This document shows, piece after piece, positions 2,442 through 34,830 of a stretch of DNA of 34,830 bases (positions are counted from its first letter, which is position 1; each line of letters opens with the position of its first letter). Position numbers and translations under genes: made by a program. Location: contig JAKBAI010000023.1 in the NCBI GenBank assembly GCA_021809185.1, forward strand, positions 1 through 34,830. Reading direction: 5' to 3'. Under the pieces are notes generated by a model. The model had not been told where the DNA came from. It did no database searches and saw only the letters and a list, made by a program, of their open reading frames with translations. Origin of the DNA: Planctomycetota bacterium (GTDB taxonomy: Bacteria; Planctomycetota; Planctomycetia; Gemmatales; Gemmataceae).

Positions 2442-2801
2442 ATGTCGGTTAATTTACATTTATCGATTATCATTCGGGATTATAACCCCAGCCGAAGAGA
2501 TATTATCAAGCAAGCAATTCAAGAAGAGCTTGTTAAACAACAACTCAACGACGATCTACCCCCGCTTACCGAAAGTATCGATGAAAAAGGTTGCTTTCTG
2601 GCAACCTATAGTAATCGCGATGCACCGGTGATCATCAGCAATGCGTATAAATGGATTCCTCAATTTCGGGAAACTTTACAACAAAAAGCGAATCTTGCCA
2701 ATCAGGGGAATTGCAACGTTCACTTCGATGGGGAGGATGCAGATGATGAGGATTACCAAGATTATGAAGAAGAGGATGAATCTGAAGAGAACGATAAATA
2801 A
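2442..2801 (+). CDS. Small hypothetical protein with acidic C-terminal tail
   Basis: The start is well supported: AAAGGAG at 2429-2435 lies 6 nt before the ATG. The 119-residue product has an ordered-looking N-terminal part (1-90), with a strand-like segment (L-H-L-S-I-I-I-R-D-Y) followed by an amphipathic helix. The last 25 residues are almost all Asp, Glu and Tyr. It has no signal peptide or membrane segment, so it is probably cytoplasmic. I do not recognise the family. An acidic tail of this kind can bind basic proteins or metals, but nothing here decides that. It stands alone, followed by a repeat-bearing gap before the convergent GlcE-like gene. Confidence 0.75.
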   Translation: MSVNLHLSIIIRDYNPSRRDIIKQAIQEELVKQQLNDDLPPLTESIDEKGCFLATYSNRDAPVIISNAYKWIPQFRETLQQKANLANQGNCNVHFDGEDADDEDYQDYEEEDESEENDK

Positions 2802-2859
2802 AGAGGATATTTTCGCATCTAGAAACGAGATCGATTATCTGGATGGATTTTCAATATTT

Positions 2860-2894
2860 GTAGCTAGTTACTAAAAATATGTATCTAGTTACTA
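2860..2894. repeat. 14-bp direct repeat with 21-bp period
   Basis: GTAGCTAGTTACTA at 2860-2873 recurs as GTATCTAGTTACTA at 2881-2894, one mismatch, offset 21 bp. Confidence 0.7.
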
Positions 2895-2921
2895 GTTGTG
2901 ATCGTACCAACAAATCGCGTT

Positions 2922-2967
2922 GCTATGCTAATCGTGTAGCTATGCTAATCGTGTAGCTTCGCTAATC
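2922..2967. repeat. 17-bp tandem repeat, about 2.7 copies
   Basis: GCTATGCTAATCGTGTA occurs identically at 2922-2938 and 2939-2955. A third partial copy at 2956-2967 has two changes. Confidence 0.85.
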
Positions 2968-3146
2968 TCTTAGTTCTATCACCCGCGTTAACATCCCTCT
3001 TTTTCGCGATTCCATTTTTGCTTCGTGTTAAATTCCAGAGTTACCTCGAGAATCGTTCCTTGGAATGAAAGTCTTGAATCGAGCAAGATTATCAAACTAA
3101 TTTAGGCGATTGTCAACAATCAGATAACTCGCTTTATCCCGCCAAT

Positions 3147-4502
3147 CTAAATTCCATCGACAAATCGACCAGGATTATAGACACTTCGAGTATCTAATTT
3201 ATCTTTGATCTTTCTCATCATGGTTCTTTCTGCAACACGATCGGGTGAAGCAATACCCCAAATCGGCAAAAGAGCTGAACCGGGATTATGCGAATCTACT
3301 TGAAGAGATCCCCCATCGGATAACATAGCGCCAGGGTATTGCAAAATCTGGAATGTCCCTTTTTTCTCCTGAAGGATTGCTTGAAGTTTCTCAAAAATAG
3401 ATTGATTCACCGCTGAATTTCGCAATTCTGAAGCGAACCACTGCAAATAGACAATGCCGTTCAAGATGTGGCTGCGAATGCCACAGAGGGGGAATAGCTC
3501 TTGCATTCGCTGGCAAAAGTCGGGGACATCTCCTGGCAAAATCGAAATCTTAATCAGCAACGAATCCTCCGGATACAACGGCGCATCCGCGAGTCGCTCA
3601 TCCAACTTTTGCCAATCTCCCGGCTCTATAAGGTAAAAAGAGGGGACTATCTGTTTGCATTCACTTTGGATTTGCTCCGTTTGCCATGCGACCGCTTCGC
3701 GATTCCCTTCGAAGAGGACGAGCAGCGTCCAAAGAGAATTCGAGCCGTTTTGCATTTTTATACTTTGCTCATTTAAGATCGGCTTGGTTGCCAGCGAACT
3801 ATCTTTCACCACATTCATGAGGGCGGTTTGATTAAAAAGATCCACAGCGAGTGGGCGAGTTGCGCTCTGCCGAATCGCTTCCATAATTTTCGGCAATTCC
3901 GCAGCGGCAACAGAAATCAACAGGGCTTGACGATCTTCTGGGAGCGGCACCACTTTGAAGGTAACTTGTGTTATGAATGCCAATGTTCCGTACGACCCGA
4001 TAAACAATTTCATCAAATCGTAACCAGCGACATTTTTTACTACTCGTCCCCCCCCTTTGATTTCTACCCCTTCATCATTCATGGCAGAAATCCCGATGAC
4101 ATAATCGCGCAGAGTACCGTAACCCAATCGCCGTAATCCAAAAAAATTGGTCGCGATAGCCCCACCCACGGTCGATCGATCCGGAAACGGCAAGTCCACG
4201 GGTAAAAACTGCTTCTCTGCGCGAAGAAGCTCTCTCAACTGTTGGATTGTCATTCCTGACTGAACCGTTATTGTCATATCACGCGCAGGGTATTCGATAC
4301 ATTGTTTCAGCTCGTGGGTTTGAATACCGATTCCTGGTCGCTTGGGGACATGACCAATGTGGCATTTACTCGCCCCACCGATGGGAAATACCGCTAGATT
4401 TTTCGCCTGCGCCCCGCGGATGCAATCCCCGAGCTGACGCACGTTCTCCGGCGTTTCACATGGAATATTCCCCAAACCGCGAATTTCTCGATTTGTACCC
4501 AT
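3147..4502 (-). CDS. glcE: FAD-binding oxidoreductase, glycolate oxidase GlcE-like subunit
   Basis: The 451-residue protein is predicted to be a flavoprotein of the glycolate/lactate oxidase group, where GlcE works with GlcD and the iron-sulfur subunit GlcF to oxidise glycolate to glyoxylate. It has the PCMH-type FAD domain: a G-G-A-S-K stretch (42-46), the first subdomain to about 108, then T-V-G-G-A-I-A-T-N (111-119), L-G-Y-G-T-L-R-D-Y-V-I-G (126-137) and the very GlcE-like V-V-K-N-V-A-G-Y-D-L-M-K-L (154-166). The C-terminus ends in Y-N-P-G-R-F, as in the family. E. coli GlcE is about 350 residues, so this one is longer, mainly after residue 230. The ATG at 4502 has only a weak ribosome site (GGTGAA). 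No GlcD or GlcF gene is in the window, so it may function with distant partners or alone. Confidence 0.8.
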   Translation of the reverse strand: MGTNREIRGLGNIPCETPENVRQLGDCIRGAQAKNLAVFPIGGASKCHIGHVPKRPGIGIQTHELKQCIEYPARDMTITVQSGMTIQQLRELLRAEKQFLPVDLPFPDRSTVGGAIATNFFGLRRLGYGTLRDYVIGISAMNDEGVEIKGGGRVVKNVAGYDLMKLFIGSYGTLAFITQVTFKVVPLPEDRQALLISVAAAELPKIMEAIRQSATRPLAVDLFNQTALMNVVKDSSLATKPILNEQSIKMQNGSNSLWTLLVLFEGNREAVAWQTEQIQSECKQIVPSFYLIEPGDWQKLDERLADAPLYPEDSLLIKISILPGDVPDFCQRMQELFPLCGIRSHILNGIVYLQWFASELRNSAVNQSIFEKLQAILQEKKGTFQILQYPGAMLSDGGSLQVDSHNPGSALLPIWGIASPDRVAERTMMRKIKDKLDTRSVYNPGRFVDGI

Positions 4503-4687
4503 TTTGATTCAATTCACCTAAATAATGATTCGATTTTTTCTGCTTCGATTCCTGTTGCTATTTTTATCATTCTCACGCAAATGGAGCAGATTTTTCCCCA
4601 AGATTCTTCTCTCAAATTATTATTTTTTGCCGATATGACAAGAATAAACTCACTTTAACTACCGCTTGGTCTTCTTTATTCGTGGGT

Positions 4688-6076
4688 TTATTTAGAAATT
4701 GATTTACTCGTGTTATTGTCCAGTTCGTTTTGGAGAATATTGATCATGATTTTCCAGGTCGATGTATTACACGGACAACGAAAGGTTAGCAACGATTTCA
4801 CTCGATCTATTTGAAAATTGGCATTTTTCTTAGAATCAATGAAACTTTTTGACACTTTCTTTTCAATGGACGAAGCGACCGATTCTTGGATGAAGTCCAT
4901 CGTCACGATAGCATCAAACATTTGCCCCTGGAGAACTATCGGCGTCTCCGCAGGAATTATCTGAATGGCTATCTTTCGAAAGATTCGGTTAACTAGATCG
5001 ATTTTGAGGGGATTATTCCCCAAATATTTTGATAAATAGGGTTGCAAGGTTTGAGGTATATCCTGCATCTTTTCAGCATGAAAATACAATACAACGAAAG
5101 GATTTTTAGCAGATTTGATAGCCACATTTTGATGCAGGGTAGCCAAGGGGTTGACAAAGCGATTCCATCGTTCTTCCGCACTGTTGGGAATAGCTTGGAT
5201 ATCCATTTTATTGATTCCGCCGATCCAATCTTGGTCCGCTGATTGCCACCAATACCAACTTAGCGGCAGATCGAGAATTTCTAATAATCGGCGTTGATCT
5301 TCCAAATGAACTTGATGATATTTTCGTTTTTTCATTCTCGTTAAAATCTCTTCAGGATGATCCCAAACAATCGCCGTAACTACTCCTATAGGTTGAAATT
5401 GCAGAGAAACGAGCAGTTCACTTAGTGTATCGATGGAAGGCAGATTCAGAGTATGTGCCGAAGTGGAGAGGAATGAATCACTGGAAGCGAACCACTCCTC
5501 TGGTGTGCCACTTTTGGCCATTAACTGAGCAAAAGTTACGCCATTTTCCTGGGCATATTTTCGCAATGCCCCCAACTGAACCAATAAAAAAGTATCACTA
5601 TTTGATGGGAGATAAGATAAAGAATATACCGATTCGAACTTTTGAGATTCCGAGCTATCCAGATTATTTGTCAATGGGGTACCACGTTGTTTATCTAAAA
5701 CCGTGCTTATCTGCCAAACAATCACCAACAATACACAAATAATGGGGATTCCCCAGATGAAATATCGTGATTTCGATCTATCTATATTCTTGATGGTCTG
5801 TGGATTCGTCCCCGAATAGGAAGAACTCTGGGCGATTAAGATATCATCAGAACGATTTTTCCCAGATTGGGAATTTTTTGGGGATCGATCGCTGGGTTGT
5901 GTATCCTGTAAGAGTTCATTAGGTGAGCTGCTCTGGCCTGAAATTTGAGTGATCGATTGACTAGAAATAAGGAACGATTCTTCGCATCGTGGACAATTCA
6001 TTCTTTTTTCCTCAGATATTTTATCTTCTAGGAAAATTGTAGTATTACAATAGGGACAACGAAGCGATTTAACCAT
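4688..6076 (-). CDS. Zinc-ribbon, single-pass membrane protein of unknown function
   Basis: From the ATG at 6076 the product is about 462 residues. It opens with a two-CxxC zinc ribbon (C7-x2-C10 and C28-x2-C31), similar in style to the short MJ0042-like ribbons common at the N-terminus of planctomycete proteins. A Ser/Asn/Gln-rich linker follows, then one transmembrane helix (about 105-123, Y-F-I-W-G-I-P-I-I-C-V-L-L-V-I-V-W) and a large C-terminal domain of about 330 residues that I do not recognise. By topology the ribbon would be cytoplasmic and the large domain periplasmic. The frame is open to a TTG at 6118, but the ATG has AAGG 8 nt upstream and starts directly before the ribbon. It follows the GlcE-like gene in genome order but is upstream of it in transcription, with a 185-bp gap. 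Confidence 0.75.
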   Translation of the reverse strand: MVKSLRCPYCNTTIFLEDKISEEKRMNCPRCEESFLISSQSITQISGQSSSPNELLQDTQPSDRSPKNSQSGKNRSDDILIAQSSSYSGTNPQTIKNIDRSKSRYFIWGIPIICVLLVIVWQISTVLDKQRGTPLTNNLDSSESQKFESVYSLSYLPSNSDTFLLVQLGALRKYAQENGVTFAQLMAKSGTPEEWFASSDSFLSTSAHTLNLPSIDTLSELLVSLQFQPIGVVTAIVWDHPEEILTRMKKRKYHQVHLEDQRRLLEILDLPLSWYWWQSADQDWIGGINKMDIQAIPNSAEERWNRFVNPLATLHQNVAIKSAKNPFVVLYFHAEKMQDIPQTLQPYLSKYLGNNPLKIDLVNRIFRKIAIQIIPAETPIVLQGQMFDAIVTMDFIQESVASSIEKKVSKSFIDSKKNANFQIDRVKSLLTFRCPCNTSTWKIMINILQNELDNNTSKSISK

Positions 6077-6521
6077 TCCTTCAACCTTCCCAATCAGTGG
6101 ACAATTTCGAATTCTCAAAGCTGTCCGAACGAGAATTCCTTCTTTTGCTATCCGATAAATATATGAGAATTTTAATTAAGAGGGGTTAAAATCATGCAAA
6201 ATTTAGACCAAAACTTATTTTTCGTGAAATTTCTAGATGGATTTTCCCCTTTGTATTGACCTATTTTCCAATCCTTCTTAGACTAGACTCTGGCAAATAA
6301 TCGCTTTTTCATTGTAAGTTAGGTCACACGAAACCGAACGATTCACAACGAAAAGAATTTTTGCCATGTAAAATCTGTCTTCGAGAGCAAAAGATAGTTG
6401 GAAATAGACTAAATCCAAGGGTATCGATCGATTTTCGATTCGAACTTTTGGCATAAAACCTTCAAAATCATCGAACGGAATCGAAAAAATTCAGATAAAA
6501 AATAGAATAGTTTAGATACTC

Positions 6522-6596
6522 AGAGGATCTTTTCCCATGAAGATCCTTTCGTTGTATCATTGGTATCATGGGAAAGTGACGTTAGAAATTAGATGA
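6522..6596 (+). promoter_or_regulatory. Possible secA leader: alternative hairpins and 19-codon frame
   Basis: Two stems share sequence. Stem A pairs 6522-6531 with 6540-6549 (ten pairs, one G-T) around the loop TTCCCATG. Stem B pairs TTTCCCATGA (6531-6540) with TCATGGGAAA (6566-6575), ten perfect pairs. They cannot form together. An ATG at 6537 opens a 19-codon frame (MKILSLYHWYHGKVTLEIR) ending in TGA at 6594-6596. GAGGA at 6523-6527 lies 9 nt upstream of it and is buried in stem A. The arrangement is attenuator-like, but the link to secA, 406 nt downstream, is inference. Confidence 0.3.
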
Positions 6597-6680
6597 TCTA
6601 ACCGAAATAGATAAATTAAAATAGCGGTCACCTACTGGCCAGGTATTGAGGCAAGCTATCAATAGTAGATTTCGGGAAAC

Positions 6681-6760
6681 AAGCAAAGTAAGTGAAATTC
6701 AAGCAAAACGAGTGAAATTCAAGCAAAACGAGTGAAATTCAAGAATAGCGAGTGAAGCAG
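6681..6760. repeat. 20-bp tandem repeat, 4 copies, upstream of secA
   Basis: Four units of 20 bp start at 6681, 6701, 6721 and 6741. Units 2 and 3 are identical (AAGCAAAACGAGTGAAATTC). Unit 1 differs at two positions and unit 4 is more diverged. No spacers are present, so it is not a CRISPR array. Confidence 0.9.
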
Positions 6761-7002
6761 AAGTGGATTTGAATCATTTTGAACCACAGTGAACCAGAGA
6801 AATATAGCTCTATAAAATAGCTATTTCTACGTTTGTTCCTAAAAATGATTTGATTCCATTTGTGTTATGTGAAAATGGATAAAGTCACTTGGGAAAAGTT
6901 AAAATAGATTCTGAAAACGAATAATAAAATCGATCAGGGACAGAGAAAGAAAGTACTTCCAAGCGATCAAAGGGTAAGGACTACGATAACAAGAGAGAAA
7001 TT

Positions 7003-10000
7003 ATGTCAAACGAGATGAATTTTCAAGCAACATTTCTAGAACGACTGGGAGATAGCGCCTCCAATCTGATCAATGGATTTATCCATTTTCTCGGACGGAT
7101 GTTAGGTTCGACAACAGAAGCAGAGATTCGGAAAGTCGGTTATCTACCAACGAAAAATCCCGACCAACCATATCAAATCAAGCCCGGATCGATACTGGAT
7201 CGCATCAATCAGTTCGAAAAGAAAATGGAAGCATTGACCGATAGTGAATTGAAAGAATCGGCAACGAAAATGCGCGAGCGGTTAAAAAACAATGAAACCC
7301 TCGAAGATCTATTACCCGAGGCATTCGCTGCGGTGCGGGAAGCCGGTCGGCGAACAAAAGGGATGCGGCACTACGATGTGCAGATGGTCGGGGGCATTAT
7401 TTTGCATCGCCGCGGCATTGCCGAAATGGTGACCGGTGAAGGAAAAACACTCGTTGCAACTTTGCCGGCATTTCTGAATGCGCTGACGGGCAAAGGGGTT
7501 CACGTCGTCACCGTCAACGACTATCTCGCCCGCCGCGATTGTGAATGGATGCTCCCGATCTATTCCGCCCTAGGACTTTCCGCCGGTTTTATCCAAAGCG
7601 ATATGGAAAGCGAAGCGCGCATGAAAGCCTACAATTGCGATATTACTTACGGCACCAGTAATGAATTCGGCTTCGATTATCTGCGCGACAATATGAAACT
7701 AGCACGCAATGGCGATAACCGTTTCCACCCGTTTTACCAACAAGTACAGCGGGAATTGAATTTTGCGGTTATCGACGAAGTCGACAATATTTTGATTGAC
7801 GAAGCGCGCACCCCGCTGATTATAGCCGGTTCAGCTTCTGGGGATCTGAAACTGTATGAAACCGCCAATCAGGTAGCTATTAAATTGACCGCCGCGGAGA
7901 AAAGTGCCCAAGCCGAACGGATGGCACAAATGGCCGCAGGAACCTATGTCGAAACCGAAGAAGAGAAAGAGGAGAAAAAAAAGAGCCCTGGCCCCAAAGG
8001 GATTTACTTCGATGTTCGCGAAAAGGAGAGAACCTGCCATTTAACCGATAAAGGGATTCGCTTGGCCGAGGAACTGGTCGGGGTCGAAAGCTTCTTTACC
8101 ATGGGGAATACCGAATGGCCTCATCTGATCGATAATGCCCTCAAGGCACACCATTTGTATCAGCGTGACCGGCACTATATGGTCATGGAGCACGAAGGGG
8201 AACGGAAAGTTATTATCATCGACGAATTTACCGGGCGTGCCCTCTTTGGCCGGCAATGGAGTGATGGTCTGCACCAAGCCGTTGAAGCCAAACACAAATC
8301 GGATGGGGTGAAGATCAAGGAAGAGAATCAAACCTTGGCCACTATCACATTGCAAAATTATTTCAAATTGTACAAAAAAATCTCGGGTATGACAGGTACC
8401 GCTTCGACCGAAGCGGGGGAATTCTGGAAAATCTATACCTTAGAAGTGGTTCCCATCCCGACGAATCGCAGCATGAAGCGGATCAATAATCCCGATCTGA
8501 TCTATTTGAATATAGAAGATAAATGGGATGCGATCGTCACCGAGATTGATAGTGTACATAAAACGGGGCGACCGATCCTGATCGGGACAACCGATGTCGC
8601 CAAATCAGAAATGCTCGCTTCGCTATTGAAACGCAAAGGTATCCGCTATGAGCTGCTCAATGCCAAGCCGGAAAACGTTACCCGCGAATCGGAAATCGTG
8701 GCCCAAGCGGGCCGGATGGGAGCTGTAACCATCGCCACCAACATGGCGGGTCGCGGCACCGATATTATCCTAGGCGGTAACCCTGAATATCTGGCCTGGG
8801 CTAAGCTGAAATCGACCTATGCTTCAAGACTCGATGTTCCCGACCAGGTTTGGAAACAAACAGTCGATGAGATCGAAGCACAAGAAAAAATGCGCGAAGC
8901 AGGCCGTAAAGTGGCCGAAATCGGTGGTCTTCATATTATTGGAACCGAACGGCACGAAAGTAGACGAATCGACAATCAGCTCAGGGGGCGTGCGGGCCGC
9001 CAGGGGGATCCCGGTTCATCCCAATTTTTTGTCTCGCTGACCGATGATCTCATGAGATTGTATGGTGGGGAATGGGTCGCTTCGGTGCTCACGCGCTTTG
9101 GCGCTCAAGCCGGGGAACCTATCGCCGGAGGGAGCTGGATTTCGAAACGGATTCAAGCCTGTCAAAAACGCATCGAAGAGATCCACTTTGAACAGCGCAA
9201 ACATCTCCTCGATTACGATGAGGTTATGGACGTCCAGCGCAAAGAGATTTATACGAAACGGCAAGCGATTCTGAACGATGCCAACTGTAAAATTCAATTG
9301 TTCCAGATGATGGAAGTAGAAACCGAACAGGCTATAGAAACCTATCTGGCCCCAGATTACGGGAGCGCTGAATTTGCCAAATATGCTTCTGCGAAGTTAG
9401 GGGTTGAGCTTGATCCCCGCGAAATCAACTCGATGAGCTGGGAAGAAGCCAACAATTACGCTCACGAAATGGCCCTCAACCATTCCAGTACCGTCGTGCA
9501 GGATATCCTTGATGAAAATCTCAGCATCGATGACGATCCGAAAGATTGGAAATGGAAAGAGGTTTCACGGATTCTACAATCCCGCTACAATCTAAAACTG
9601 AATGATCGCGAGCTGAAAAAAATTGGTCGCGACGAGATTGAACAAATATTACTCGCGCAGATCCGCGAAGCGGTTCAAGTAATTCCGCTTGACGAAGGAT
9701 CCAGTTTCTTCGATCCCGAGTATGGGGTAAATTCGTTGCAGCAATGGCTCCAGCGCAAATTCCATGTACAGATCCCCACTCAAGAGATCGATAGCAGTCT
9801 ACCCGTTGATGTCCTAACGGCAAAAATTGTAAAAGCGATTAAAGAAGCCTATGTCGAACGCGAAGTCAATTTCCCAATCGAAGTCGCGATGAACCATTTC
9901 ATGGCTGAAAAGAATTCCCAATTCGGCAGCCAAAAGTACGACCGCGAAGGGCTTCTGCACTGGGCGAAAATTCGCTTTGGTGTTGCTGCTGAATCCCTTA

Positions 10001-10917
10001 CTTCTTTGCAATTTCGCATGGAATCCCGCAGCAAAATTTTCGCTATTCTCAAGGAAGTCAGTACCAATTACTACAGCAAAATCTCGCAATGGGAGATTGA
10101 TAATCAGTTAAATGAAACTTTAGCTGGGACCAAAATTGCAGAACCAGCTGATGCCAAAGAATTATGCGATTGGATGAAATCGAGTTTCGATCTTACCATT
10201 CCAGTCGAAGCACTCGCGCAACAACCGAGAAACGTCATTCAGAATATACTCTGGAATTTCTTCGATCTTAAATATCGTCCAGAAATTCATAACACCGAAA
10301 GAAATTTACTTTTGGAAACGATCGATAATGCCTGGAAACAACATCTGCTCAGCTTGGATCACTTGCGTTCTTCGATTAGTTTGTATGGAGTCGCTCAATC
10401 CGGGGATCCGCGAATCATCTTCAAGAAAGAAGGGATGAAAGAATTCGAAGGGATGTGGAAAGGGATTCGTGATCGTGTTACCGATTCGCTGTTCCGAATG
10501 TCGGGCGAAGATAATACCGATGTCATTTTCATGGCACTAGAATCTTTGAAAAGTCTCGGGGTTCCTGTCGAAAATAGGGATCCGAACGAGTCCAACGAGA
10601 CGAGTGAAAATCGAGTCGATGGTAAAGAATTCGAATCCCCTCCTCTGAGACGCAATGTTGTTTCCGCTATGCTGAAAAATGCTAACTTGGCCGGAACCAA
10701 AGCGAATCCCGAATCGGCTCTTTCATCCCCCCCACCCGAGGTGAGAGCGAAAGCAGACCAGGAAAACAACGATATGACCACGAACTCTAGTGAAGGGAAG
10801 AAAAGAGAACCGATTCGAAACCAAATGCAAAAAATCGGCCGTAACGATCTTTGTCCCTGTGGCAGTGGTAAGAAATATAAAAATTGCCATATGAAACAGA
10901 CAACGCATCCTTCGTGA
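7003..10917 (+). CDS. secA: Preprotein translocase ATPase SecA, enlarged
   Basis: SecA is the ATPase that drives unfolded preproteins through SecYEG at the inner membrane. The motifs are clear: M-V-T-G-E-G-K-T (142-149), D-E-V-D (258-261) followed by I-L-I-D-E-A-R-T-P-L, M-A-G-R-G-T-D-I (581-588), and Q-L-R-G-R-A-G-R-Q-G-D-P-G (659-671). The C-terminal SEC-C zinc motif has C1284, C1286, C1295 and H1296. The family is usually 800-950 residues; this one has 1304. Most of the excess is between about 785 and 1092, inside the C-terminal helical region. There five degenerate copies of a 40-47-residue unit can be seen, before the normal sequence resumes at about 1098 (N-T-E-R-N-L-L-L-E-T-I-D-N-A-W). 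A low-complexity linker (1188-1275) precedes the zinc motif. The gene ends in TGA. It appears monocistronic, with hairpins downstream. Confidence 0.97.
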   Translation: MSNEMNFQATFLERLGDSASNLINGFIHFLGRMLGSTTEAEIRKVGYLPTKNPDQPYQIKPGSILDRINQFEKKMEALTDSELKESATKMRERLKNNETLEDLLPEAFAAVREAGRRTKGMRHYDVQMVGGIILHRRGIAEMVTGEGKTLVATLPAFLNALTGKGVHVVTVNDYLARRDCEWMLPIYSALGLSAGFIQSDMESEARMKAYNCDITYGTSNEFGFDYLRDNMKLARNGDNRFHPFYQQVQRELNFAVIDEVDNILIDEARTPLIIAGSASGDLKLYETANQVAIKLTAAEKSAQAERMAQMAAGTYVETEEEKEEKKKSPGPKGIYFDVREKERTCHLTDKGIRLAEELVGVESFFTMGNTEWPHLIDNALKAHHLYQRDRHYMVMEHEGERKVIIIDEFTGRALFGRQWSDGLHQAVEAKHKSDGVKIKEENQTLATITLQNYFKLYKKISGMTGTASTEAGEFWKIYTLEVVPIPTNRSMKRINNPDLIYLNIEDKWDAIVTEIDSVHKTGRPILIGTTDVAKSEMLASLLKRKGIRYELLNAKPENVTRESEIVAQAGRMGAVTIATNMAGRGTDIILGGNPEYLAWAKLKSTYASRLDVPDQVWKQTVDEIEAQEKMREAGRKVAEIGGLHIIGTERHESRRIDNQLRGRAGRQGDPGSSQFFVSLTDDLMRLYGGEWVASVLTRFGAQAGEPIAGGSWISKRIQACQKRIEEIHFEQRKHLLDYDEVMDVQRKEIYTKRQAILNDANCKIQLFQMMEVETEQAIETYLAPDYGSAEFAKYASAKLGVELDPREINSMSWEEANNYAHEMALNHSSTVVQDILDENLSIDDDPKDWKWKEVSRILQSRYNLKLNDRELKKIGRDEIEQILLAQIREAVQVIPLDEGSSFFDPEYGVNSLQQWLQRKFHVQIPTQEIDSSLPVDVLTAKIVKAIKEAYVEREVNFPIEVAMNHFMAEKNSQFGSQKYDREGLLHWAKIRFGVAAESLTSLQFRMESRSKIFAILKEVSTNYYSKISQWEIDNQLNETLAGTKIAEPADAKELCDWMKSSFDLTIPVEALAQQPRNVIQNILWNFFDLKYRPEIHNTERNLLLETIDNAWKQHLLSLDHLRSSISLYGVAQSGDPRIIFKKEGMKEFEGMWKGIRDRVTDSLFRMSGEDNTDVIFMALESLKSLGVPVENRDPNESNETSENRVDGKEFESPPLRRNVVSAMLKNANLAGTKANPESALSSPPPEVRAKADQENNDMTTNSSEGKKREPIRNQMQKIGRNDLCPCGSGKKYKNCHMKQTTHPS

Positions 10918-17128: not shown

Positions 17129-18898
17129 TCAAGCCGATTTACTAGCCGGTTCCTTGTCGCCAGAAGCAGAGTCTTTACGCAACATCATTTCCGGCTTTAA
17201 CAAAGGGTGCAATTTACTAGGTTGATCCAGATTCGTTGGGAGGGTAACGAAAAAGGTTGTACCCAGATCTGGTACACTTTCAACCACAATCGAACCATGG
17301 TGAGCGTTCACAATCGTCTGGCAGATAGCTAAACCGAGACCACTCCCCCCCTTTTCACGATTACGAGCACGATCGGCACGATAAAAGCGATCAAAAATAT
17401 GCTCTTGATCACTTTCCGAAATACCGATTCCCGTATCAGAAATGGAAAGAATTGTCTGCTTTGGATCTATTTTTTTCAGCTTAACAATGATACGACCGTT
17501 GGGCCGATTATAAATAATCGCGTTGTTGAGAAGATTAATGATGACCTGCATCAGTCGATCGCCATCGCCATAGAGATGAATATCGTCCAGAATCAATTCA
17601 ATTTCAATACCCTGAGCATCGGCCAAAGGTTGTAGTAAATCTGCCGTTGCGGCAACCAGAGCAGTGAAATCTAAAGGCTGTTTACGCAACTCCCATTTAC
17701 CCGCATCTGCCCGAGCCAACATGAACAAGCCCTCGACCAAAACTTTCATGCGCTGAGCCGCCCGCAAATTCGTTTCTAGCGCGGATCGGTAATCAACGGC
17801 AGAACGGTCCCGAGATAAAGCATGCTCCGATTGAGTCAAAATAATTGCTAAGGGGGTTCGCAATTCGTGAGAAGCATCGGCAGTGAATCTGATCTGCTGG
17901 GCAAATGCCGCTTCTAAGCGACCAAACATATCGTTGAGAGTATGGACCAACATCCCAAACTCGACATCGATCCCTTTGGGATCGATCCGCTCTTGCAAAT
18001 TCGTTGCGGAAATATTTTCGGCAATTTGCGAAATTTTTATGATCGGTTTTATCGCTTGCCGAGAAAAGAACCAACCTCCAAACACCCCCAATAAAATGAC
18101 CATCGTTCCCGTTAAAAACATTCGAACCGATCTTTTATTCAATTCGTTGATCTCTTTTTTTACGAGCTGACCTACTAAGATTCTCGAAGATAAATTGGCC
18201 CCGATCCAGACATAGCGATATTCGCCGAGCTGCTGCGATTGATAGGAATTCTCATTATAGGTGGAGGGACCAAATAATTTTTCCATGGACAGCAGAGGGG
18301 CCTCTTCATTGGAATTGAGTAGAAGGGTGTGGTCACTGAGCCAGATCGAGTAAAATGGCAAACGTTCTACTTCATCGATATATTTTTGATGTAGATGGAG
18401 ATCTTCGGAAATGCGTAAATATTTTATCAATTCTTCTTTAAGGAAAAGGGAATTATCTGGTGATCCTGATCCCTTAAATAAGGGCGGAAGTATCAATCCA
18501 CTCTTGTTCTCAAAAGAGCTTCCTTTCTTGTTTGATTTTGAGTCGGATTTATCCGAATTTTTGGGTTGGTTACCTGGGAAATGGGAATGGGATGATTTTT
18601 TATTATCCCCAAAAGGCAGATGTTTCAAATCATCCTTTTTATGAGGATCGTGGATTGTATTATGGAGATTTTCTTTCTCTTCTTCGAGCCAGGTATGGTC
18701 ATGAGGGAAACATTCTGAAGGTATGCGATGCAAAGCGGTATCTAGGGTACGTGCTATGGCATGTAATTCGCCATCGACTTCGCTCCATTTTCCTTGGCGC
18801 GATTGATAATCAAGCAAAACGGCAAAACCGCTGATCGTAACAAACATGATCCCGGTATACCATACCTGTAATTTGAAACGAAAAGATTTAAGGCCCAT
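17129..18898 (-). CDS. Sensor histidine kinase (HAMP, HisKA, HATPase)
   Basis: This is an inner-membrane sensor kinase of 589 residues from the ATG at 18898. It has TM1 (about 12-30), a periplasmic sensor region to about 258, TM2 (about 262-278), HAMP (to about 332), then the H-box S-H-E-L-R-T-P-L with phospho-acceptor His344. The N-box is I-I-N-L-L-N-N-A, the G1 box D-T-G-I-G-I, the F-box F-D-R-F-Y-R and the G2 box G-G-S-G-L-G-L-A-I. The periplasmic segment 65-130 is rich in His, Asp, Lys and Ser, which would suit metal or envelope-stress sensing, but that is inference. Its start overlaps the end of the response-regulator gene by 11 bp, indicating translational coupling. The reading frame also has a TTG one codon upstream. 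Confidence 0.93.
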   Translation of the reverse strand: MGLKSFRFKLQVWYTGIMFVTISGFAVLLDYQSRQGKWSEVDGELHAIARTLDTALHRIPSECFPHDHTWLEEEKENLHNTIHDPHKKDDLKHLPFGDNKKSSHSHFPGNQPKNSDKSDSKSNKKGSSFENKSGLILPPLFKGSGSPDNSLFLKEELIKYLRISEDLHLHQKYIDEVERLPFYSIWLSDHTLLLNSNEEAPLLSMEKLFGPSTYNENSYQSQQLGEYRYVWIGANLSSRILVGQLVKKEINELNKRSVRMFLTGTMVILLGVFGGWFFSRQAIKPIIKISQIAENISATNLQERIDPKGIDVEFGMLVHTLNDMFGRLEAAFAQQIRFTADASHELRTPLAIILTQSEHALSRDRSAVDYRSALETNLRAAQRMKVLVEGLFMLARADAGKWELRKQPLDFTALVAATADLLQPLADAQGIEIELILDDIHLYGDGDRLMQVIINLLNNAIIYNRPNGRIIVKLKKIDPKQTILSISDTGIGISESDQEHIFDRFYRADRARNREKGGSGLGLAICQTIVNAHHGSIVVESVPDLGTTFFVTLPTNLDQPSKLHPLLKPEMMLRKDSASGDKEPASKSA

Positions 18899-19544
18899 CA
18901 ATCATATATCCTTGACCACGTCGAGTAATGATAATATCTTTACCCAACTTCTTTCTAACATTATAGATATGCACATCGATTAGATTGGAAAGAGAATCTT
19001 CGGTTTCATCGAAGAGATGATCGTAAATCATGGTTCGGGTGACCAGCTCACCCCGATAGAGCATTAAATATTCAACCAGGGAATATTCCATTGCCGTAAG
19101 TGGAATCGATTGATCCCCCCGGCGAACAACCCGCGCTGCGGTATCGATCAACAAGTCTTTCACCTGAATAACCGATTCGGCATGGCCAAGAGATCTTCGA
19201 ATCAGAGCACGCAACCGGGCTTGTAATTCTACCAGCTCGAATGGCTTGATCAGATAATCATCGGCTCCATAATCCAAGCCACGGACCCGATCGTTTAGTC
19301 CTTCCCTCGCTGTCATAATTAAAACGGGAGTTTTATGAGTTTTTCGCAAATTTGCTAAGACCATGAACCCATCTTGCTTTGGAATCATGAGATCCAAAAT
19401 GATTGCATCGTAATCATTGGAGGTCGCCTTGAACAACCCCTCGTCCCCGTTGACTGCCTCATCAACAGCATAACCGGTTTCTCGCAAAGTGCTCGCAACA
19501 ATACTGCGAAGATCACCCTCGTCTTCGATTATTAATACACGCAT
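18888..19544 (-). CDS. OmpR/PhoB-type response regulator
   Basis: The 218-residue regulator has a receiver domain with the acidic pair in I-I-E-D-E, phospho-acceptor Asp51 (I-I-L-D-L-M-I-P), the conserved Thr and Lys of L-I-M-T-A-R and Y-L-I-K-P-F, and a C-terminal winged helix (T-A-M-E-Y-S-L-V-E-Y-L through R-R-G-Q-G-Y-M-I). The open frame extends to a GTG at 19631, but the ATG at 19544 has GGAG 8 nt upstream and begins exactly at the receiver fold (M-R-V-L-I-I-E-D-E), so it is chosen. It overlaps the kinase start by 11 bp and is the obvious partner of that kinase. The glycine-rich Spy-like gene lies 317 bp upstream on the same strand and is a plausible target. Confidence 0.95.
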   Translation of the reverse strand: MRVLIIEDEGDLRSIVASTLRETGYAVDEAVNGDEGLFKATSNDYDAIILDLMIPKQDGFMVLANLRKTHKTPVLIMTAREGLNDRVRGLDYGADDYLIKPFELVELQARLRALIRRSLGHAESVIQVKDLLIDTAARVVRRGDQSIPLTAMEYSLVEYLMLYRGELVTRTMIYDHLFDETEDSLSNLIDVHIYNVRKKLGKDIIITRRGQGYMIDGP

Positions 19545-25580: not shown

Positions 25581-25701
25581 GCTGAAATCAGATATAATTG
25601 AAAGAACCGTAAAATATAGCTCTCCTATTTCGAGAGAGCTTGAGTAATAAAGAGATAGAAACTGGTCCATATAAAGATAAGTGCCGAAGGAGTTCGCGAA
25701 A

Positions 25702-27738
25702 ATGGTTTTTCACCATCAGAAGATAATCCAACGATGGAAGATCGTATCCCTGCCCATGCTCTTGGGATTAATGATCAGCCTAGGCTGTAATAGTAATTAC
25801 GAAAAAACTCGAACTTCGAGCTATACATCGAGTGAAGTACCGGACAAAGAACCGGGCGACCCGCTCTTCGCACCGATTCCATTTTCCAAACCGGACACCG
25901 GGGTTCATTCGAAAATGGATCCTATATTACTGCCATCATGCAGTGTTATGATCGACCCGACGATGCGCCGAGATGTTCCAAGTCGAGAAGAGGGAATTAT
26001 TGCATATATTGGGGTAGAGAAAAATAAGAATCCGATAACGATGACCGAAGACCAGAACGTCCAAGAGATTCTCAAGAACTTCCGGCCACTGACCATAGGT
26101 GATAAAGTAGATGCGAATCAACCGATTGCCATTTTGGAACCAACGCGGGCAAAATTAGATGTGATTATCGCTAAATATGCATTGGTAGGTGCCAAGAAGC
26201 AGATCATTGCTGCCAAAAATGTCCTTGAAGAAGCCAAAGCAAATCTCAAGTTGACTGAAAAAGGGAGTCTTAAACGAGCGATTGCGGAACTGGATGTTCA
26301 CGCTGCGCGGGCGAGTGTGGCACGCTATGAAGCGGAACTAGAGGCCAAAATCGCTGAAGAATCTAAAATCGGTCCTGAACTGGAAAAAGCCAAAGAAAAA
26401 TTCTCAAAACACACGATTGTTTCGCCCATTCGCGGTGAAGTTGTGCAAATTTATAAACAGCCTGGCGAATCGATCAAAGCCAATGACACGGTGATACAGA
26501 TCGTGAATTTTGATCGATTGGAAGTTGAAGGATCTCTCGAACGGCAATTTGCCCAGAGGCTCCGAGCGGGAATGAAAGCCTCCGTCGAACCCAATATTTT
26601 ACGCAGCCCAGAACAAACGCAAGATGTGTTTCACCGGGGCCGAGCTATAACTGCGATTGCTTTCAGCCAAAACACGCCAATCCCCATGATTATCTCCGCA
26701 GCGGAGGATAACCTGGCCGTAGTCTGGGATCTGAATCGCAATCGCTTACAAACCTGGAAATTCCCTGGTATCGTTCGAGCCATTGCTTGCACCGGCAAAG
26801 AGTCGAAAGAATCGTTCGTGCTCTTAGGAAACGAAGATGGGTATGCAAGGATTTTCGATCTGAATCATCTAGGGGAAGAGCCGCGCATAACTCTCAAGGA
26901 TCGCCATGAGGGGGGGGTACGAGCGGTTACTTTCTCTCCAAACGGGGAATGGTGTGTCACCGCGGATGGTGTTCGCAATCTGTTTCTCTGGGAAACGGCA
27001 ACGGGTAATCTGATTTACCGGTTCCCACAAAAACACAACGACTATGTCACCTCTCTCTTTTTCTTGCCGCAATGCCGGGTTGTTTCCGTTGGCAAAGATA
27101 ATACGTTACGCCAATGGAAAATTGGGAAAGATGCCGCTCAGCTTGAAAAAGACAAATCGATTTTGCACCGGACGGGGGAAGTTTCGCAAATCGGGATGAC
27201 GGAAGATGGTAATCAAATTCTGGTCGATTATTCGAAAAGCAAATTGCATCTCGTTCATCTCTGGGATACGCAAACCGAACGAGTATTGCAACAGGTGAAC
27301 GAAGCAACTTCGTTTCGCTTACTTGCTTTATTCTCGCCTCCTATCGGTCCTAAAAATCAACGGCTGATCTTGACCGCTAACAATTCCAGTAATCTAACCC
27401 TCTGGCGTGCCCCTTCCAAAGACGAACGGGGATCGGAACTTTGCCAGCTGGTGTTACCACACGACAATCAACCCACTTTTGCCGCTTTTTCCCCGAATGC
27501 CAATCAAGGGGTCATCGCTGTTGGCACTAAACAAGGAGAAATCCATCTCTGGACGATGCCGACTTCTGATGAGATCAACCATCACTGGATCGGGACGATT
27601 GAGCATATCGATTCCACCGTTGATACCAGTGGCCGCAGTGTTAAAGTCACTGTCTCATTTGATAACCCAGCAGATGACCACTACCGCTTACGCCCTGGAA
27701 CCAATGCCACTCTGGTCATCGATCCTATTCAGAAGTAA
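25702..27738 (+). CDS. HlyD-type adaptor lipoprotein with an inserted seven-bladed WD40 propeller
   Basis: From the ATG at 25702 (AAGGAG 9 nt upstream; a GTG at 25681 is in frame but precedes that site) the product is 678 residues. A signal sequence ends in I-S-L-G-C, suggesting a lipoprotein. Next come the first lipoyl half (about 97-147), a coiled coil (about 150-236), the second lipoyl half (V-S-P-I-R-G-E-V-V, about 240-248) and the first barrel strands. Residues about 312-620 then hold seven WD-type blades ending V-W-D, I-F-D, L-W-E, Q-W-K, L-W-D, L-W-R and L-W-T. After the propeller, W-I-G-T-I-E-H...V-K-V-T-V-S-F and L-R-P-G-T-N-A-T-L-V-I complete an adaptor barrel. The propeller thus sits inside the adaptor. 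It probably acts in the periplasm with the M50-HlyD protein, 48 bp downstream. The substrate is unknown. Confidence 0.87.
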   Translation: MVFHHQKIIQRWKIVSLPMLLGLMISLGCNSNYEKTRTSSYTSSEVPDKEPGDPLFAPIPFSKPDTGVHSKMDPILLPSCSVMIDPTMRRDVPSREEGIIAYIGVEKNKNPITMTEDQNVQEILKNFRPLTIGDKVDANQPIAILEPTRAKLDVIIAKYALVGAKKQIIAAKNVLEEAKANLKLTEKGSLKRAIAELDVHAARASVARYEAELEAKIAEESKIGPELEKAKEKFSKHTIVSPIRGEVVQIYKQPGESIKANDTVIQIVNFDRLEVEGSLERQFAQRLRAGMKASVEPNILRSPEQTQDVFHRGRAITAIAFSQNTPIPMIISAAEDNLAVVWDLNRNRLQTWKFPGIVRAIACTGKESKESFVLLGNEDGYARIFDLNHLGEEPRITLKDRHEGGVRAVTFSPNGEWCVTADGVRNLFLWETATGNLIYRFPQKHNDYVTSLFFLPQCRVVSVGKDNTLRQWKIGKDAAQLEKDKSILHRTGEVSQIGMTEDGNQILVDYSKSKLHLVHLWDTQTERVLQQVNEATSFRLLALFSPPIGPKNQRLILTANNSSNLTLWRAPSKDERGSELCQLVLPHDNQPTFAAFSPNANQGVIAVGTKQGEIHLWTMPTSDEINHHWIGTIEHIDSTVDTSGRSVKVTVSFDNPADDHYRLRPGTNATLVIDPIQK

Positions 27739-27786
27739 ATCGTTATCTGAGAAACCACCGCCAATCGGATTGCAAGGATTTAGGTT

Positions 27787-30021
27787 ATGAACGCCACGGT
27801 AGAAGCGGCAGAACGGCGCAAGCTAGTCCGGTTGCAAAAGCGACCGGACCTTTATGTCGTCCAGCAACGCTATGAAAATCGCCAGTATCATATTGTCAAA
27901 GATCCCGTTGGATTGAAATATTACCGTCTCAACGAGCAGGAATATTTCGTATTCTCCAAGTTGGATGGTAAATCTACTTTGGAGGATATTCAAAAATCGT
28001 TTGAAAGCAATTTCCGCCCTAGCCGCTTAAGCCTAGAAGACCTGGAAAGTTTTGCACGGCAATTGGTCCTCAATGGCTTAGTTATTCACGAAACAACCGC
28101 TGCGGGGAAAGGGCTATTCGACCGCCGGCAAAAACAGAAACGCATGAAAAGGCTGATGACCTTTTCTAATATCCTGTATATGAAAATTCCCATCATCGAT
28201 CCGGATCGTTTACTCGATGGGATGTATCGTTATCTGAGTTGGATTTTCACTTACTGGTTTCTGTTTTTAAGCGTTTGTTTAATGGCCTCCGCACTGGGAT
28301 TGGTGGCTCTCAAATTCGATATTTTCTGGGATAAACTCCCTGCCTACCACGAATTTTTCCGCTTTCGCACCGTTCTGTATATGTGGATCGCGCTCGGTTT
28401 TGTGAAGGTGATTCACGAATTTGGCCACGGTTTGAGTTGCAAGGCTTTCCGGGGAGAATGCCATGAAATGGGGGCCTTGCTGATGTGCTTCTCCCCTGCC
28501 CTATATTGCAACGTCACCGATGCCTGGACCCTTTCCGATAAATGGAAACGAATTGTCATTAGCTTTGCTGGGATTTATGTAGAATTGATCATTGCCTCAA
28601 TAGCCACGTTTGTGTGGTGGAACACCCCGCACTGGCCTTTTGTCAATAACATTGCTCTTAGCCTCATGGTATTATGCAGTGTTAGTACTTTTATGTTCAA
28701 TGCCAATCCGCTGATGCGTTTTGACGGCTATTATATCTTAGCCGATTGGTTGGAAGTCCCCAATTTACGCGAACGTTGCAACCGCTTTTTGAACAATCAA
28801 TTTTCCAAAATCGCTCTGGGGATTGAAGTGCCCCCCGAACCTTATATGGCTCCGGGCCGCAAAGTATTGTTCATTGTTTATGCTATTGTTAGTTATGTCT
28901 ACCGCTGGGTTGTTACCTTCAGCATTCTGTACTTTTTATGGAATTGGCTGAAACCGTATAAACTAGAGTCCATCAGTATGTTGCTGACCATGGCTTCCGT
29001 TATATCGATGATTTTCTGGCCAGTATTTCGGTTGTTCCGCAATATTCGAAAACGAGGGAGATTGCCTGATATGAAACGTAATCGTGTCCTAGTCACTTCC
29101 AGTATTTTTGCTGCCTTCCTGGCGATTTTCTTTCTGGTCCCTCTGCCCATTAGTCGGATTCGAGAAACCGGACTGGTTCAGGTTCAGGAAGATAATCTAG
29201 CCCGGGTCTATTTGACCGATTCGGGCACACTCGATTATATAGAAGTTTACGATGGTCAAGAGGTGCGCGAGGGACAAATCTTAGCACGATTCTCCAATCC
29301 CAAATTAAAAGCTGAATTGGGAGAGATCAACGCCTCGATTCAGGAATTAGAAACACGAATCAAAAATATTAATAACCAAATGCCAACTCTGCGCTTGGAG
29401 GTCTCGCTCCGTAACCAGGCCGAAAACGACCTGGCCAATCTTCAAGAACAGTTACGCAGCACCAAATTGCAACAACTTCAGACTCAGGATCGTCTCGATC
29501 GCATTTCCGAATTGCGTGCACCGCGATCTGGTGTTGTTATGAACTCTCCAAAAACGGATGAACTTCACAAGTTCTGGGAAAAACTCGATAGCCCTGCCTT
29601 CTGTTCTATTGGCGACCTGAATCATATGCGTATCCTACTACCAGTCGAACCGCAAAATTATCGATTACTCCAGCAAAATCTGGATCTTTACGGCACTCTG
29701 ATGGTATCCATTCACTTCCCTGGACGTAGTGATAAGGTCTATCATGGTCAAATCTCTAAGCTACCGCAAATCCCTGCGGACGATGTCCCAATTGCTTTAA
29801 CCTCACGCGGCGGTGGTTCCTTAGCAGTCAAACCAAGTATCAATCCCAATCTGAACGAACCTTTGACCCAAACCTATCTAATACCGGTTGAAATTACCGA
29901 TAGCGATTATACCATTTGCCCCGGTACACTTGCTACCGCAAAAATTCATACCGAATGGAAACCACTATCTTGGTATGTCTGGAGAAAAATCGCTTCCGCA
30001 ATGGATTGGGGTTTACTCTAA
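27787..30021 (+). CDS. PqqD-like / M50 site-2 protease / HlyD fusion membrane protein
   Basis: The 744-residue protein has a PqqD-like N-terminal winged domain (about 36-105, Y-Y-R-L-N-E-Q-E-Y-F-V-F...T-L-E-D-I) and a multi-helix M50-type membrane region. The zinc site is H210-E-F-G-H214 and the third ligand Asp313 lies in N-P-L-M-R-F-D-G-Y-Y. More helices follow to about 452, then an HlyD-like periplasmic part (about 463-735) with split lipoyl halves (L-D-Y-I-E-V-Y-D-G-Q-E-V-R-E-G-Q and L-R-A-P-R-S-G-V-V) around a coiled coil. The intact catalytic residues suggest an active intramembrane protease. AAGGA 8 nt before the ATG supports the start. It lies 48 bp after the WD40 adaptor gene and 43 bp before folP, so an operon is likely. 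A PqqD-like domain often recognises a peptide leader, hinting at peptide maturation or export. Confidence 0.9.
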   Translation: MNATVEAAERRKLVRLQKRPDLYVVQQRYENRQYHIVKDPVGLKYYRLNEQEYFVFSKLDGKSTLEDIQKSFESNFRPSRLSLEDLESFARQLVLNGLVIHETTAAGKGLFDRRQKQKRMKRLMTFSNILYMKIPIIDPDRLLDGMYRYLSWIFTYWFLFLSVCLMASALGLVALKFDIFWDKLPAYHEFFRFRTVLYMWIALGFVKVIHEFGHGLSCKAFRGECHEMGALLMCFSPALYCNVTDAWTLSDKWKRIVISFAGIYVELIIASIATFVWWNTPHWPFVNNIALSLMVLCSVSTFMFNANPLMRFDGYYILADWLEVPNLRERCNRFLNNQFSKIALGIEVPPEPYMAPGRKVLFIVYAIVSYVYRWVVTFSILYFLWNWLKPYKLESISMLLTMASVISMIFWPVFRLFRNIRKRGRLPDMKRNRVLVTSSIFAAFLAIFFLVPLPISRIRETGLVQVQEDNLARVYLTDSGTLDYIEVYDGQEVREGQILARFSNPKLKAELGEINASIQELETRIKNINNQMPTLRLEVSLRNQAENDLANLQEQLRSTKLQQLQTQDRLDRISELRAPRSGVVMNSPKTDELHKFWEKLDSPAFCSIGDLNHMRILLPVEPQNYRLLQQNLDLYGTLMVSIHFPGRSDKVYHGQISKLPQIPADDVPIALTSRGGGSLAVKPSINPNLNEPLTQTYLIPVEITDSDYTICPGTLATAKIHTEWKPLSWYVWRKIASAMDWGLL

Positions 30022-30064: not shown

Positions 30065-31063
30065 ATGATCTGGACTTGTGGGCAGTTCTCGTTCGCATTT
30101 AGTTCAACCAAAGAGGAACAACAACAGTTCGCATCCACGCTTGAAAGTTCTTTTCTTGAAAGTTCTGTGGTTGAAAGTTCTATCCAGCCAAATGGGACTA
30201 GCCCTCGTTTAAAAGCTCCGGAGCCAGGAGCGCAACGATTGCTAGGCGCTCTTGGCAAGAAAGTTCAACTCCCTCTTGTAATGGGAATTGTCAATGTAAC
30301 CCCCGATAGTTTTTCGGATGGCGGGCAATTTCACCATAGGGATCAGGCCGTTCGCCATGCCCTGCAATTGGTTGAAGATGGTGCCAATATTCTCGATATT
30401 GGCGGGGAATCCAGTCGACCCGATGCCCAACCGATTTCCTGGCAAGAAGAATGTGATCGCGTGTTGCCGGTGCTGCGCATCTTAGTTCCGCAAATTTCTA
30501 TTCCGATATCGATCGATACGACCAAACCCGAAACCGCAGAGCGCTGCCTCGATCTGGGGGCTAGCATCGTCAATGATATTCGTGGCTTTCGGGATCCAGC
30601 CCTAGCACAAATTTGTCTCCCCTATAAGCCCGGTCTCTTGATCATGCACATGCAGGGGAATCCTCTCACCATGCAAAATATCCCTTACTATGATCAGGTC
30701 GTTCCAGAAACGATCGACTTCTTGAAGAACCAGATCGATCGATTGCTCGATAGCGGCTTCTCTTTAACGCAACTCGCCATCGATCCAGGGATCGGTTTTG
30801 GCAAATCTCTCGATCACAATTTGACTATTCTGCGTTCGCTTCTTGATTATCAAGTATTGAACCGCCCGCTTTGCCTGGGAGTTTCACGGAAAAGTTTTCT
30901 TGGGCGAATTACCGATAGGGATGTTCATAATCGATTGCCCGGTTCGCTAGCGGTTATCTGTTATGCGCAGATGAAACACTCGGCTCAGATTGTTCGCGTT
31001 CATGATGTTCGCGAAACAATAGATATCTTAAAAACAATTGCCGCTATCGAAAATGCAAACTGA
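30065..31063 (+). CDS. folP: Dihydropteroate synthase
   Basis: FolP condenses p-aminobenzoate with hydroxymethyl-dihydropterin diphosphate in cytoplasmic folate synthesis. Signature segments are M-G-I-V-N-V-T-P-D-S-F-S-D-G-G (73-87), D-I-G-G-E-S-S-R-P-D-A (111-121), D-P-G-I-G-F-G-K (240-247), S-R-K-S-F-L (274-279) and R-V-H-D-V near the end. The pABA/sulfonamide loop usually reads E-S-T-R-P-G; here it is E-S-S-R-P-D. The catalytic core begins near residue 68. The N-terminus carries about 65 extra residues with a five-residue repeat (L-E-S-S-F, L-E-S-S-V, V-E-S-S-I) encoded by a 15-bp DNA repeat. GGAG is 5 nt before the ATG at 30065, so the long form is well supported. It lies 43 bp after the M50-HlyD gene and is the last gene of this operon. 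Confidence 0.96.
   Translation: MIWTCGQFSFAFSSTKEEQQQFASTLESSFLESSVVESSIQPNGTSPRLKAPEPGAQRLLGALGKKVQLPLVMGIVNVTPDSFSDGGQFHHRDQAVRHALQLVEDGANILDIGGESSRPDAQPISWQEECDRVLPVLRILVPQISIPISIDTTKPETAERCLDLGASIVNDIRGFRDPALAQICLPYKPGLLIMHMQGNPLTMQNIPYYDQVVPETIDFLKNQIDRLLDSGFSLTQLAIDPGIGFGKSLDHNLTILRSLLDYQVLNRPLCLGVSRKSFLGRITDRDVHNRLPGSLAVICYAQMKHSAQIVRVHDVRETIDILKTIAAIENAN
30140..30184. repeat. 15-bp in-frame tandem repeat inside folP
   Basis: Units at 30140-30154, 30155-30169 and 30170-30184 share TTGAAAGTTCT and differ mainly in the last bases. The period is a multiple of three, so each unit adds five residues without a frameshift. Confidence 0.85.
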
Positions 31064-34440: not shown

Positions 34441-34830
34441 TTATTCTTTTTCCGTCGTGGCTCCCTCCAACAATTCAGTTAAAACTTTATCCAACTTTAT
34501 TTCATCGCATCCACAAGATTTATACCGTATTACTCCCTTTTGATCGAGTACATATAAAGTTGGCCAACCACGAACATTCCACTCCTTGCTTATGGGGCCT
34601 CCTGTTCCTTCTGGCCCATTCCAGAATGAACGCCAAGTTATTTTTTCTTCTTCGATTCGTTCCTTGAGAGACGATTTATCTACATCGGAATTGACACCAA
34701 TAATGACAAAAGGTTGATCCTTATATTTTTGCACAAGCGACCGCTCGTGTGGATACATAGCCCGGCACGGTCCTCACCAATCCCCCCAAAAATCGAGCAA
34801 TATCACTTTACCCCGGTAATCCGATAACTT
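34441..34830 (-). CDS. TlpA/thioredoxin-like protein with in-frame TGA at the redox cysteine (candidate selenoprotein, partial)
   Basis: The minus strand encodes the C-terminal part of a TlpA/AhpC-like thioredoxin-fold protein; the N-terminus lies beyond the edge. Read from 34830 it gives K-L-S-D-Y-R-G-K-V-I-L-L-D-F-W-G-D-W, then TGA (34774-34776), then G-P-C-R-A-M-Y-P-H-E. The family has W-C-G-P-C here, so TGA replaces the first redox cysteine. The frame then stays open for 110 codons with family features: I-I-G-V-N-S-D, the cis-proline region G-W-P-T-L-Y-V-L-D and K-G-V-I-R-Y. Membrane-anchored or periplasmic thiol-disulfide exchange is the family's usual role. TGA could encode selenocysteine, giving U-G-P-C, supported by the GGUC-loop hairpin downstream. 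The alternative is a TGC-to-TGA nonsense mutation or sequence error. A start at the ATG at 34758 would lack the active site. Confidence 0.75.
34732..34749 (-). promoter_or_regulatory. Candidate bacterial SECIS hairpin
   Basis: On the coding (minus) strand CACGAGC, GGUC, GCUUGUG form a seven-pair stem (one G-U) with a four-base GGUC loop. The stem starts 24 nt after the TGA and the loop starts 31 nt after it. The loop sequence is the one in the E. coli fdhF SECIS that SelB recognises, and the distance falls in the range reported for bacterial SECIS elements. It lacks the bulged U of the E. coli element. The hairpin overlaps codons for the family-conserved P-H-E-R-S-L-V, so chance pairing cannot be excluded. 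Confidence 0.55.

Follow-up and report, generated by a model that had tools for sequence, protein, structure and literature searches.

Bacterial selenoproteins of the PF00578 (AhpC-TSA) family are a known kind, because published inventories already contain members with UxxC and UxxU motifs. In their available portions, (PMC13188914) and (PMC9312934) describe a PF00578 'Prx-like thiol:disulfide oxidoreductase' with one or two selenocysteine (Sec) residues; the string 'planctomycet' does not occur in the texts of either. Two Sec residues in one redox motif (UxxU) are also known from the Prx-like 2 proteins of the GOS set, according to the accessible part of (PMC2398784), and genes for Sec insertion have been found in Gemmata obscuriglobus and Isosphaera pallida (PMC4807772, available text). 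The Cys-containing oxidoreductases ResA, TlpA and CcmG are the other obvious point of comparison.

Starting from a gene at the end of a 34,830-nt stretch of DNA (from here on the window), we describe here a widespread branch of such proteins. The window is contig C12 of a draft assembly with 407 contigs and an estimated completeness of 94.9%. From its FWGDWCGPCRAMYPHER type of sequence we presume that the window comes from a member of the Planctomycetota, perhaps of the Gemmataceae. The branch shares with the inventory proteins PF00578, the UxxC or UxxU motif and one or two Sec; set beside the descriptions in the available parts of those papers, many of its members differ by a long helical N-terminal domain and by a nearly fixed SECIS that codes for HERSLV. 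The GOS proteins, so far as described in the text at hand, likewise have two Sec in one motif, as in the UxxU clade below, but are filed under the distant pfam04592. With ResA, TlpA and CcmG the branch has in common the fold, the position of the active site and a Pro-Thr pair, whereas the intact gene used as reference (copy A) has Sec in place of the first Cys, about 240 additional N-terminal residues and scores under the NCBIfam cut-offs. In the accessible text of the open-licence literature searched, the branch, its locked hairpin and the UxxU clade are not named.

The window-end gene and a tandem array

The features of the window end are collected in Table 1. An earlier note on this DNA had placed a TGA at the first position of a W-C-G-P-C redox motif, and the codon is there (34776-34774, minus strand), flanked in frame by TGG (W) and GGA CCG TGC (G-P-C) to give WUGPC. 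Starting at base 34830 the frame reads KLSDYRGKVILLDFWGDW, TGA and GPCRAMYPHERSLV, and goes on to the TAA at 34443-34441, with 110 codons past the TGA that contain no further stop. The statement that the family sequence is unbroken on both sides holds downstream; upstream it can be followed for only 18 codons, where the contig ends. The ORF that a gene caller was expected to begin at the ATG at 34758 also exists (34758-34441, 105 aa). Standard gene calling would split or shorten such genes and the active site would be lost.

Table 1. Features at the end of the window (positions in the window)
Feature	Position	Strand	Remark
3' part of a putative TlpA/ResA-like selenoprotein gene (129 codons + TAA; 5' part off contig)	34441..34830	-	84% protein identity to copy A (C77)
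In-frame TGA, predicted selenocysteine, first redox position of WUGPC	34774..34776	-	
TGC, putative resolving cysteine of the UxxC motif	34765..34767	-	
Predicted SECIS hairpin CACGAGC-GGUC-GCUUGUG, codons HERSLV	34732..34749	-	
GGUC apical loop, 31 nt past UGA	34739..34742	-	
ATG-initiated ORF, 105 aa, without active site; likely output of a standard gene caller	34441..34758	-	
Last 92 nt of the contig, matching the end of C77 (5759-5850) without a difference; assembly interrupted within a tandem repeat	34739..34830	.	

The assembly breaks here inside a tandem array. Contig C77 (5,850 nt) carries two intact copies of the gene, A (2253-3428) and B (3602-4774), divergent from an ORF whose sequence looks transketolase-like. 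Both copies start with GTG after a Shine-Dalgarno-like stretch, have an N-terminus that by eye resembles a signal peptide, and carry the TGA at residue 281; the redox motif of copy B is WUGSC. A third copy, C, extends from 4950 to the contig end, and its final 92 nt are the first 92 of the window on the minus strand. Most simply, the window would hold the 3' part of copy C, a join that we infer rather than read because the identical 92 nt are also found inside copy A. Relative to copies A and B, copy C has a one-base gap, and its frame ends at 5558, some 85 codons ahead of the Sec codon; it is either a broken gene or misassembled at the frame break. Because this break lies in its probable upstream part, the window copy may be damaged and hence perhaps not expressed, though its family is intact.

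We have compared the copies by dN/dS (Nei-Gojobori, with bootstrap intervals). Between A and B the ratio was 0.34 above the TGA (0.22-0.52; 279 codons) and 0.12 below it (0.03-0.30; 109 codons), so that selection at the protein level below the TGA is at least as strong as above it. Below the TGA the window copy gave 0.30 against A (0.16-0.52) and 0.38 against B (0.22-0.67). These values are higher than that between A and B, with overlapping intervals, and together with the shared 92 nt and the frame that shuts ahead of the Sec codon in copy C they would fit a window copy that is now no more than the 3' piece of a third, broken member of the array, lacking a full-length product within a family of true selenoproteins. 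We consider this a real possibility, short of being the probable case: the stop-free codons and the exactly preserved hairpin speak for an intact gene, the presence of the 92 nt in copy A makes the join less certain, and a 407-contig draft that breaks inside a repeat can produce such an error.

Elsewhere in the window (25681-30021, plus strand) two adjoining ORFs, the first with HlyD and WD40 domains and the second with M50 peptidase and HlyD domains and a weak PqqD match, have the look of an unusual pair for export or maturation.

A hairpin in the selenocysteine-type relatives

The seven-pair hairpin with a GGUC loop that the earlier note had described is located at 34749-34732. It begins 24 nt after the UGA, includes one G-U among its 7 pairs and reaches -8.4 kcal/mol when folded alone. 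The SECIS of E. coli fdhF has the same GGUC apical loop; compared with it the window hairpin has a longer spacer (31 nt to the loop) and lacks a bulged U. The bSECIS model, in the available part of (PMC13188914), allows a loop of 3-9 nt, a stem of 4-16 bp, a spacing of 16-37 nt and a minimum free energy of -7.5 or lower, and wants a G in the first two positions of the loop. The window hairpin falls within all of these limits, with its 4-nt GGUC loop, 7 bp, 31 nt and -8.4 kcal/mol.

Copy A matches 92 of the 95 genomes of the window's family (E up to 1e-10). We have assembled 30 loci and 40 further stretches, the latter comprising the remaining TGA-bearing matches among those listed and a sample of the Cys matches. 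After a motif filter, collapse of identical stretches and removal of L018 and L053-L057, there were left 35 Cys-type sequences and 35 Sec-type sequences, of which 16 are UxxU and 19 UxxC (the latter including three of the source genome); the filter overlooked one further Sec type, L081, which has the same hairpin. Both kinds of homologue that had been suggested as worth looking for, those with TGA and those with TGC or TGT at this codon, were thus found, and an in-frame UGA at the redox Cys position of homologues is what is expected of a selenoprotein. The GGUC loop was present in 35/35 Sec-type and in 0/35 of the sampled Cys-type sequences, with stems of seven pairs in 20 and six pairs in 15 of the Sec set. 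Hairpin energies were between -8.4 and -10.5 kcal/mol in the Sec set and between 0 and -5.5 in the Cys set. The codons of the hairpin were nearly invariant in the former: CAC (35/35), GAG (33/33 of Glu), CGG (35/35), TCG (35/35) and CTC (31/35). The fourth of them codes for Ser in all 35 Sec sequences and in none of the 35 Cys sequences. The source genome also has a Cys paralogue of similar length without the hairpin, on contig C345 (IWATWCGPCRAMIPHEREMV). Outside the family, the search for close relatives returned five genome-contig loci (L053-L057: three in Pedobacter, one in a Chitinophagaceae MAG and one in Haloferula), none of them close and all with CGPC.

The covariation analysis covered 85 Sec sequences (64 UxxC and 21 UxxU) in which the loop is GGTC, including loci added by a DNA pattern. 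Of 99 rows, 14 without GGTC at this place were left out, namely L018 and 13 that resemble other reading frames. In this set, which was selected for the loop and in its later loci also for the hairpin, 95.6% of the stem cells were paired; with the partner slid by 1-3 nt the values were 15.5-43.2%. A compensatory change from G-C to C-G was found in L079, together with Glu to Gln, and another, from G-C to A-U and accompanied by Leu to Phe, in four sequences from L159-L161, all of one family (f60), where a fifth has the G-U intermediate. Two stem pairs are broken in L168, and the outermost pair is non-standard in 23 of the 85.

The TGA-plus-hairpin pattern itself, allowing up to 2 mismatches, was detected in 21/95 family genomes, and its reversed control in 0/95. 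Two of the genomes (G010 and G018) had only two-mismatch matches, that of G018 with TGC, which leaves 19. Across the phylum the pattern occurred in 74/392 genomes and the control in 3/392, the former number including likely chance matches such as that of G231, which begins with TGG. We also considered co-occurrence with the Sec machinery as evidence for Sec. A selB match above the cut-off was found in 18 of the 19 pattern genomes, the exception being G069 (79% complete), where no selB match was obtained; this evidence is weak and does not discriminate, since as many as 81/95 family genomes have selB above the cut-off. In one genome (L157 of G071, 3092-6974) the Sec redoxin gene lies tail to tail with selA-selB, downstream of a gene with an HTTM domain.

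The reading of the TGA and the fold of the protein

A TGA that is an ordinary stop, followed by a relic or by a frame separately translated from ATG 34758, would suit what a gene caller is likely to report, but it is very improbable given that dN/dS between A and B is as low or lower below the TGA than above it, and that both intact paralogues and 19 family genomes keep the TGA together with a hairpin that the sampled Cys relatives lack. Pseudogene decay throughout the family was rejected on the selection below the TGA and the conservation of TGA and hairpin. A decayed frame in relatives, named in the earlier note as what would speak against a selenoprotein, was not found in copies A and B or in the relatives examined.

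The genome encodes the whole Sec machinery (selA, selB, selD and a tRNA-Sec with UCA anticodon), whose complete absence had been proposed as grounds for giving up the selenoprotein reading. The genes selA (478.6 bits) and selB (408.3 bits) are neighbors on C313, selD (348.9 bits) is on C49 and has its own in-frame TGA (ASCAGUAGK), and the tRNA-Sec on C211 was found by model search (63.9 bits) and by ARAGORN. A second match to the tRNA-Sec model (48.3 bits, above cut-off) is called tRNA-Ser by ARAGORN. That the TGA is read as another amino acid such as Cys or Trp, by a change of code or near-cognate read-through, is highly unlikely in view of this machinery and of the hairpin that accompanies the TGA and is missing in the sampled Cys relatives; TGA is moreover the stop codon of at least three long ORFs in the window, 7003-10917 (secA in the earlier note), 30065-31063 (folP in the same note, an identity backed by a Pterin_bind match) and 17129-18901, which bears out the claim that it is a normal stop there. 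A sequencing error from TGC or TGT to TGA is scarcely conceivable, since the same codon recurs at three places in this draft assembly and in numerous other genomes.

The selD gene (L020, minus strand of C49) has a possible weak hairpin with a GUU loop 33 nt past its UGA (-4.3 kcal/mol alone), and therefore one SelB may have to read both GUU and GGUC loops in the source genome. On C176 of the same genome a distinct TlpA-like ORF next to a lepA-like gene (L018:3016, plus strand) carries a TGA in frame (VWAEFUTPCKQKFPH), followed 30 nt later by a GUU-loop hairpin, and is a candidate further selenoprotein.

The machinery, the two types of homologues and a hairpin that conforms to bSECIS and has compensatory changes all support the earlier reading of the window-end gene as coding for a Sec-containing redox protein, as judged from sequence. 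Very probably, the gene whose 3' part lies at the window end codes for an apparently exported oxidoreductase of the TlpA/ResA fold in which UGA stands for Sec at the attacking position of WUxxC. SelB with Sec-tRNA(Sec) would bind the GGUC-loop hairpin 31 nt downstream as the ribosome arrives at the UGA. Outside the cytoplasm, the selenolate would then attack disulfides or other oxidized substrates, and the mixed selenenylsulfide would be resolved by Cys284 (numbered as in copy A). The gene would belong to a small tandem array, of two intact copies and the window copy, by the transketolase-like gene.

Regarding the family, the label 'thioredoxin-like' is better replaced by ResA/TlpA-like. Copy A scored 68.5 bits with PF00578 (gathering score 26), and two UxxU proteins also passed this score (L068, 79.8 bits; L069, 78.5 bits), so that both marks of a PF00578 selenoprotein, a score above gathering and UxxC or UxxU, are present. 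Copy A remained under the cut-offs of thioredoxin (TIGR01068, 37 vs 96.8 bits), ResA (NF002854, 78.6 vs 170 bits) and the WAxxUGC_long selenoprotein (NF041054, 34.1 vs 300 bits), and no model of NCBIfam 20.0 reached its cut-off for seven proteins of the branch (six Sec and one Cys). The AlphaFold2 model (alignment A1 with 17 sequences, pLDDT 89.5) has a helical N-terminal domain at about 34-243 and a thioredoxin-fold domain, with Sec281 just before the helix 282-285. The best Foldseek matches were ResA-type chains (4nmu, TMt 0.84-0.89; 4nmu_B 0.88), covering the C-terminal domain only. A cis-Pro is typical of the thioredoxin-type fold, and at its expected site there is a Pro-Thr pair (352-353) that is invariant in the 17 aligned sequences. 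From all this we infer an apparently exported thiol-disulfide oxidoreductase of the ResA/TlpA fold, with Sec as the attacking residue.

Proposed double coding and the UxxU clade

When the hairpin codons of the 35 Sec sequences were randomly recoded with synonymous codons, equal stability was reached in a median of 1% of the recodings (0.1-2.4%), which is well below what a chance hairpin would give. HERSLV can be coded in 3,456 synonymous ways; pairs 2-7 survive in 128 of them, 32 of which also have the GGTC loop. The hairpin codons are nearly invariant largely because so few codings keep both stem and loop; protein and RNA lock each other. The sets of Sec and Cys sequences are thus a natural experiment in which an RNA signal constrains the sequence of a protein.

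In the UxxU members (e.g. WSEFULTURAQWPHERSLVK) 9 nt separate the two UGAs, and the spacing to the loop is 31 nt for the first and 22 nt for the second, both within the 16-37 nt range given in the available part of (PMC13188914). Some members of the branch appear, from their sequences, to carry two seleniums. We have built a tree of 117 domains (62 UxxC, 20 UxxU and 35 Cys) with the two redox columns masked, the window row being too short for inclusion. All UxxU rows formed one clade (support 100/100) nested among UxxC rows, in a tree that has few columns and 30 of 114 inner branches open, and that kept the hairpin-coded columns, which might draw Sec rows together. Its starred branches require the type to have switched between Sec and Cys no fewer than four times.

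Somewhat more likely than not, the hairpin is a locked double code, being at once SECIS and HERSLV codons, with the Ser a by-product of the RNA and the changes E to Q and L to F tracking the pairing, and a single lineage gained UxxU on one hairpin, giving a candidate diselenide enzyme that is multicopy in some genomes. The clade makes testable whether one bacterial SECIS serves two UGAs, and what role a diselenide active site has in an oxidoreductase.

The UxxU subfamily comprises L040, L063-L069, L071, L072, L075-L077 and L080-L082. Genome G028 has five pattern matches, every one of them UxxU. Two other UxxU loci, L114 and L165, have small in-frame repeats immediately 3' of the SECIS (HERSLVKNGSLVKNGEG and HERSLVEKLEKLEKKPF).
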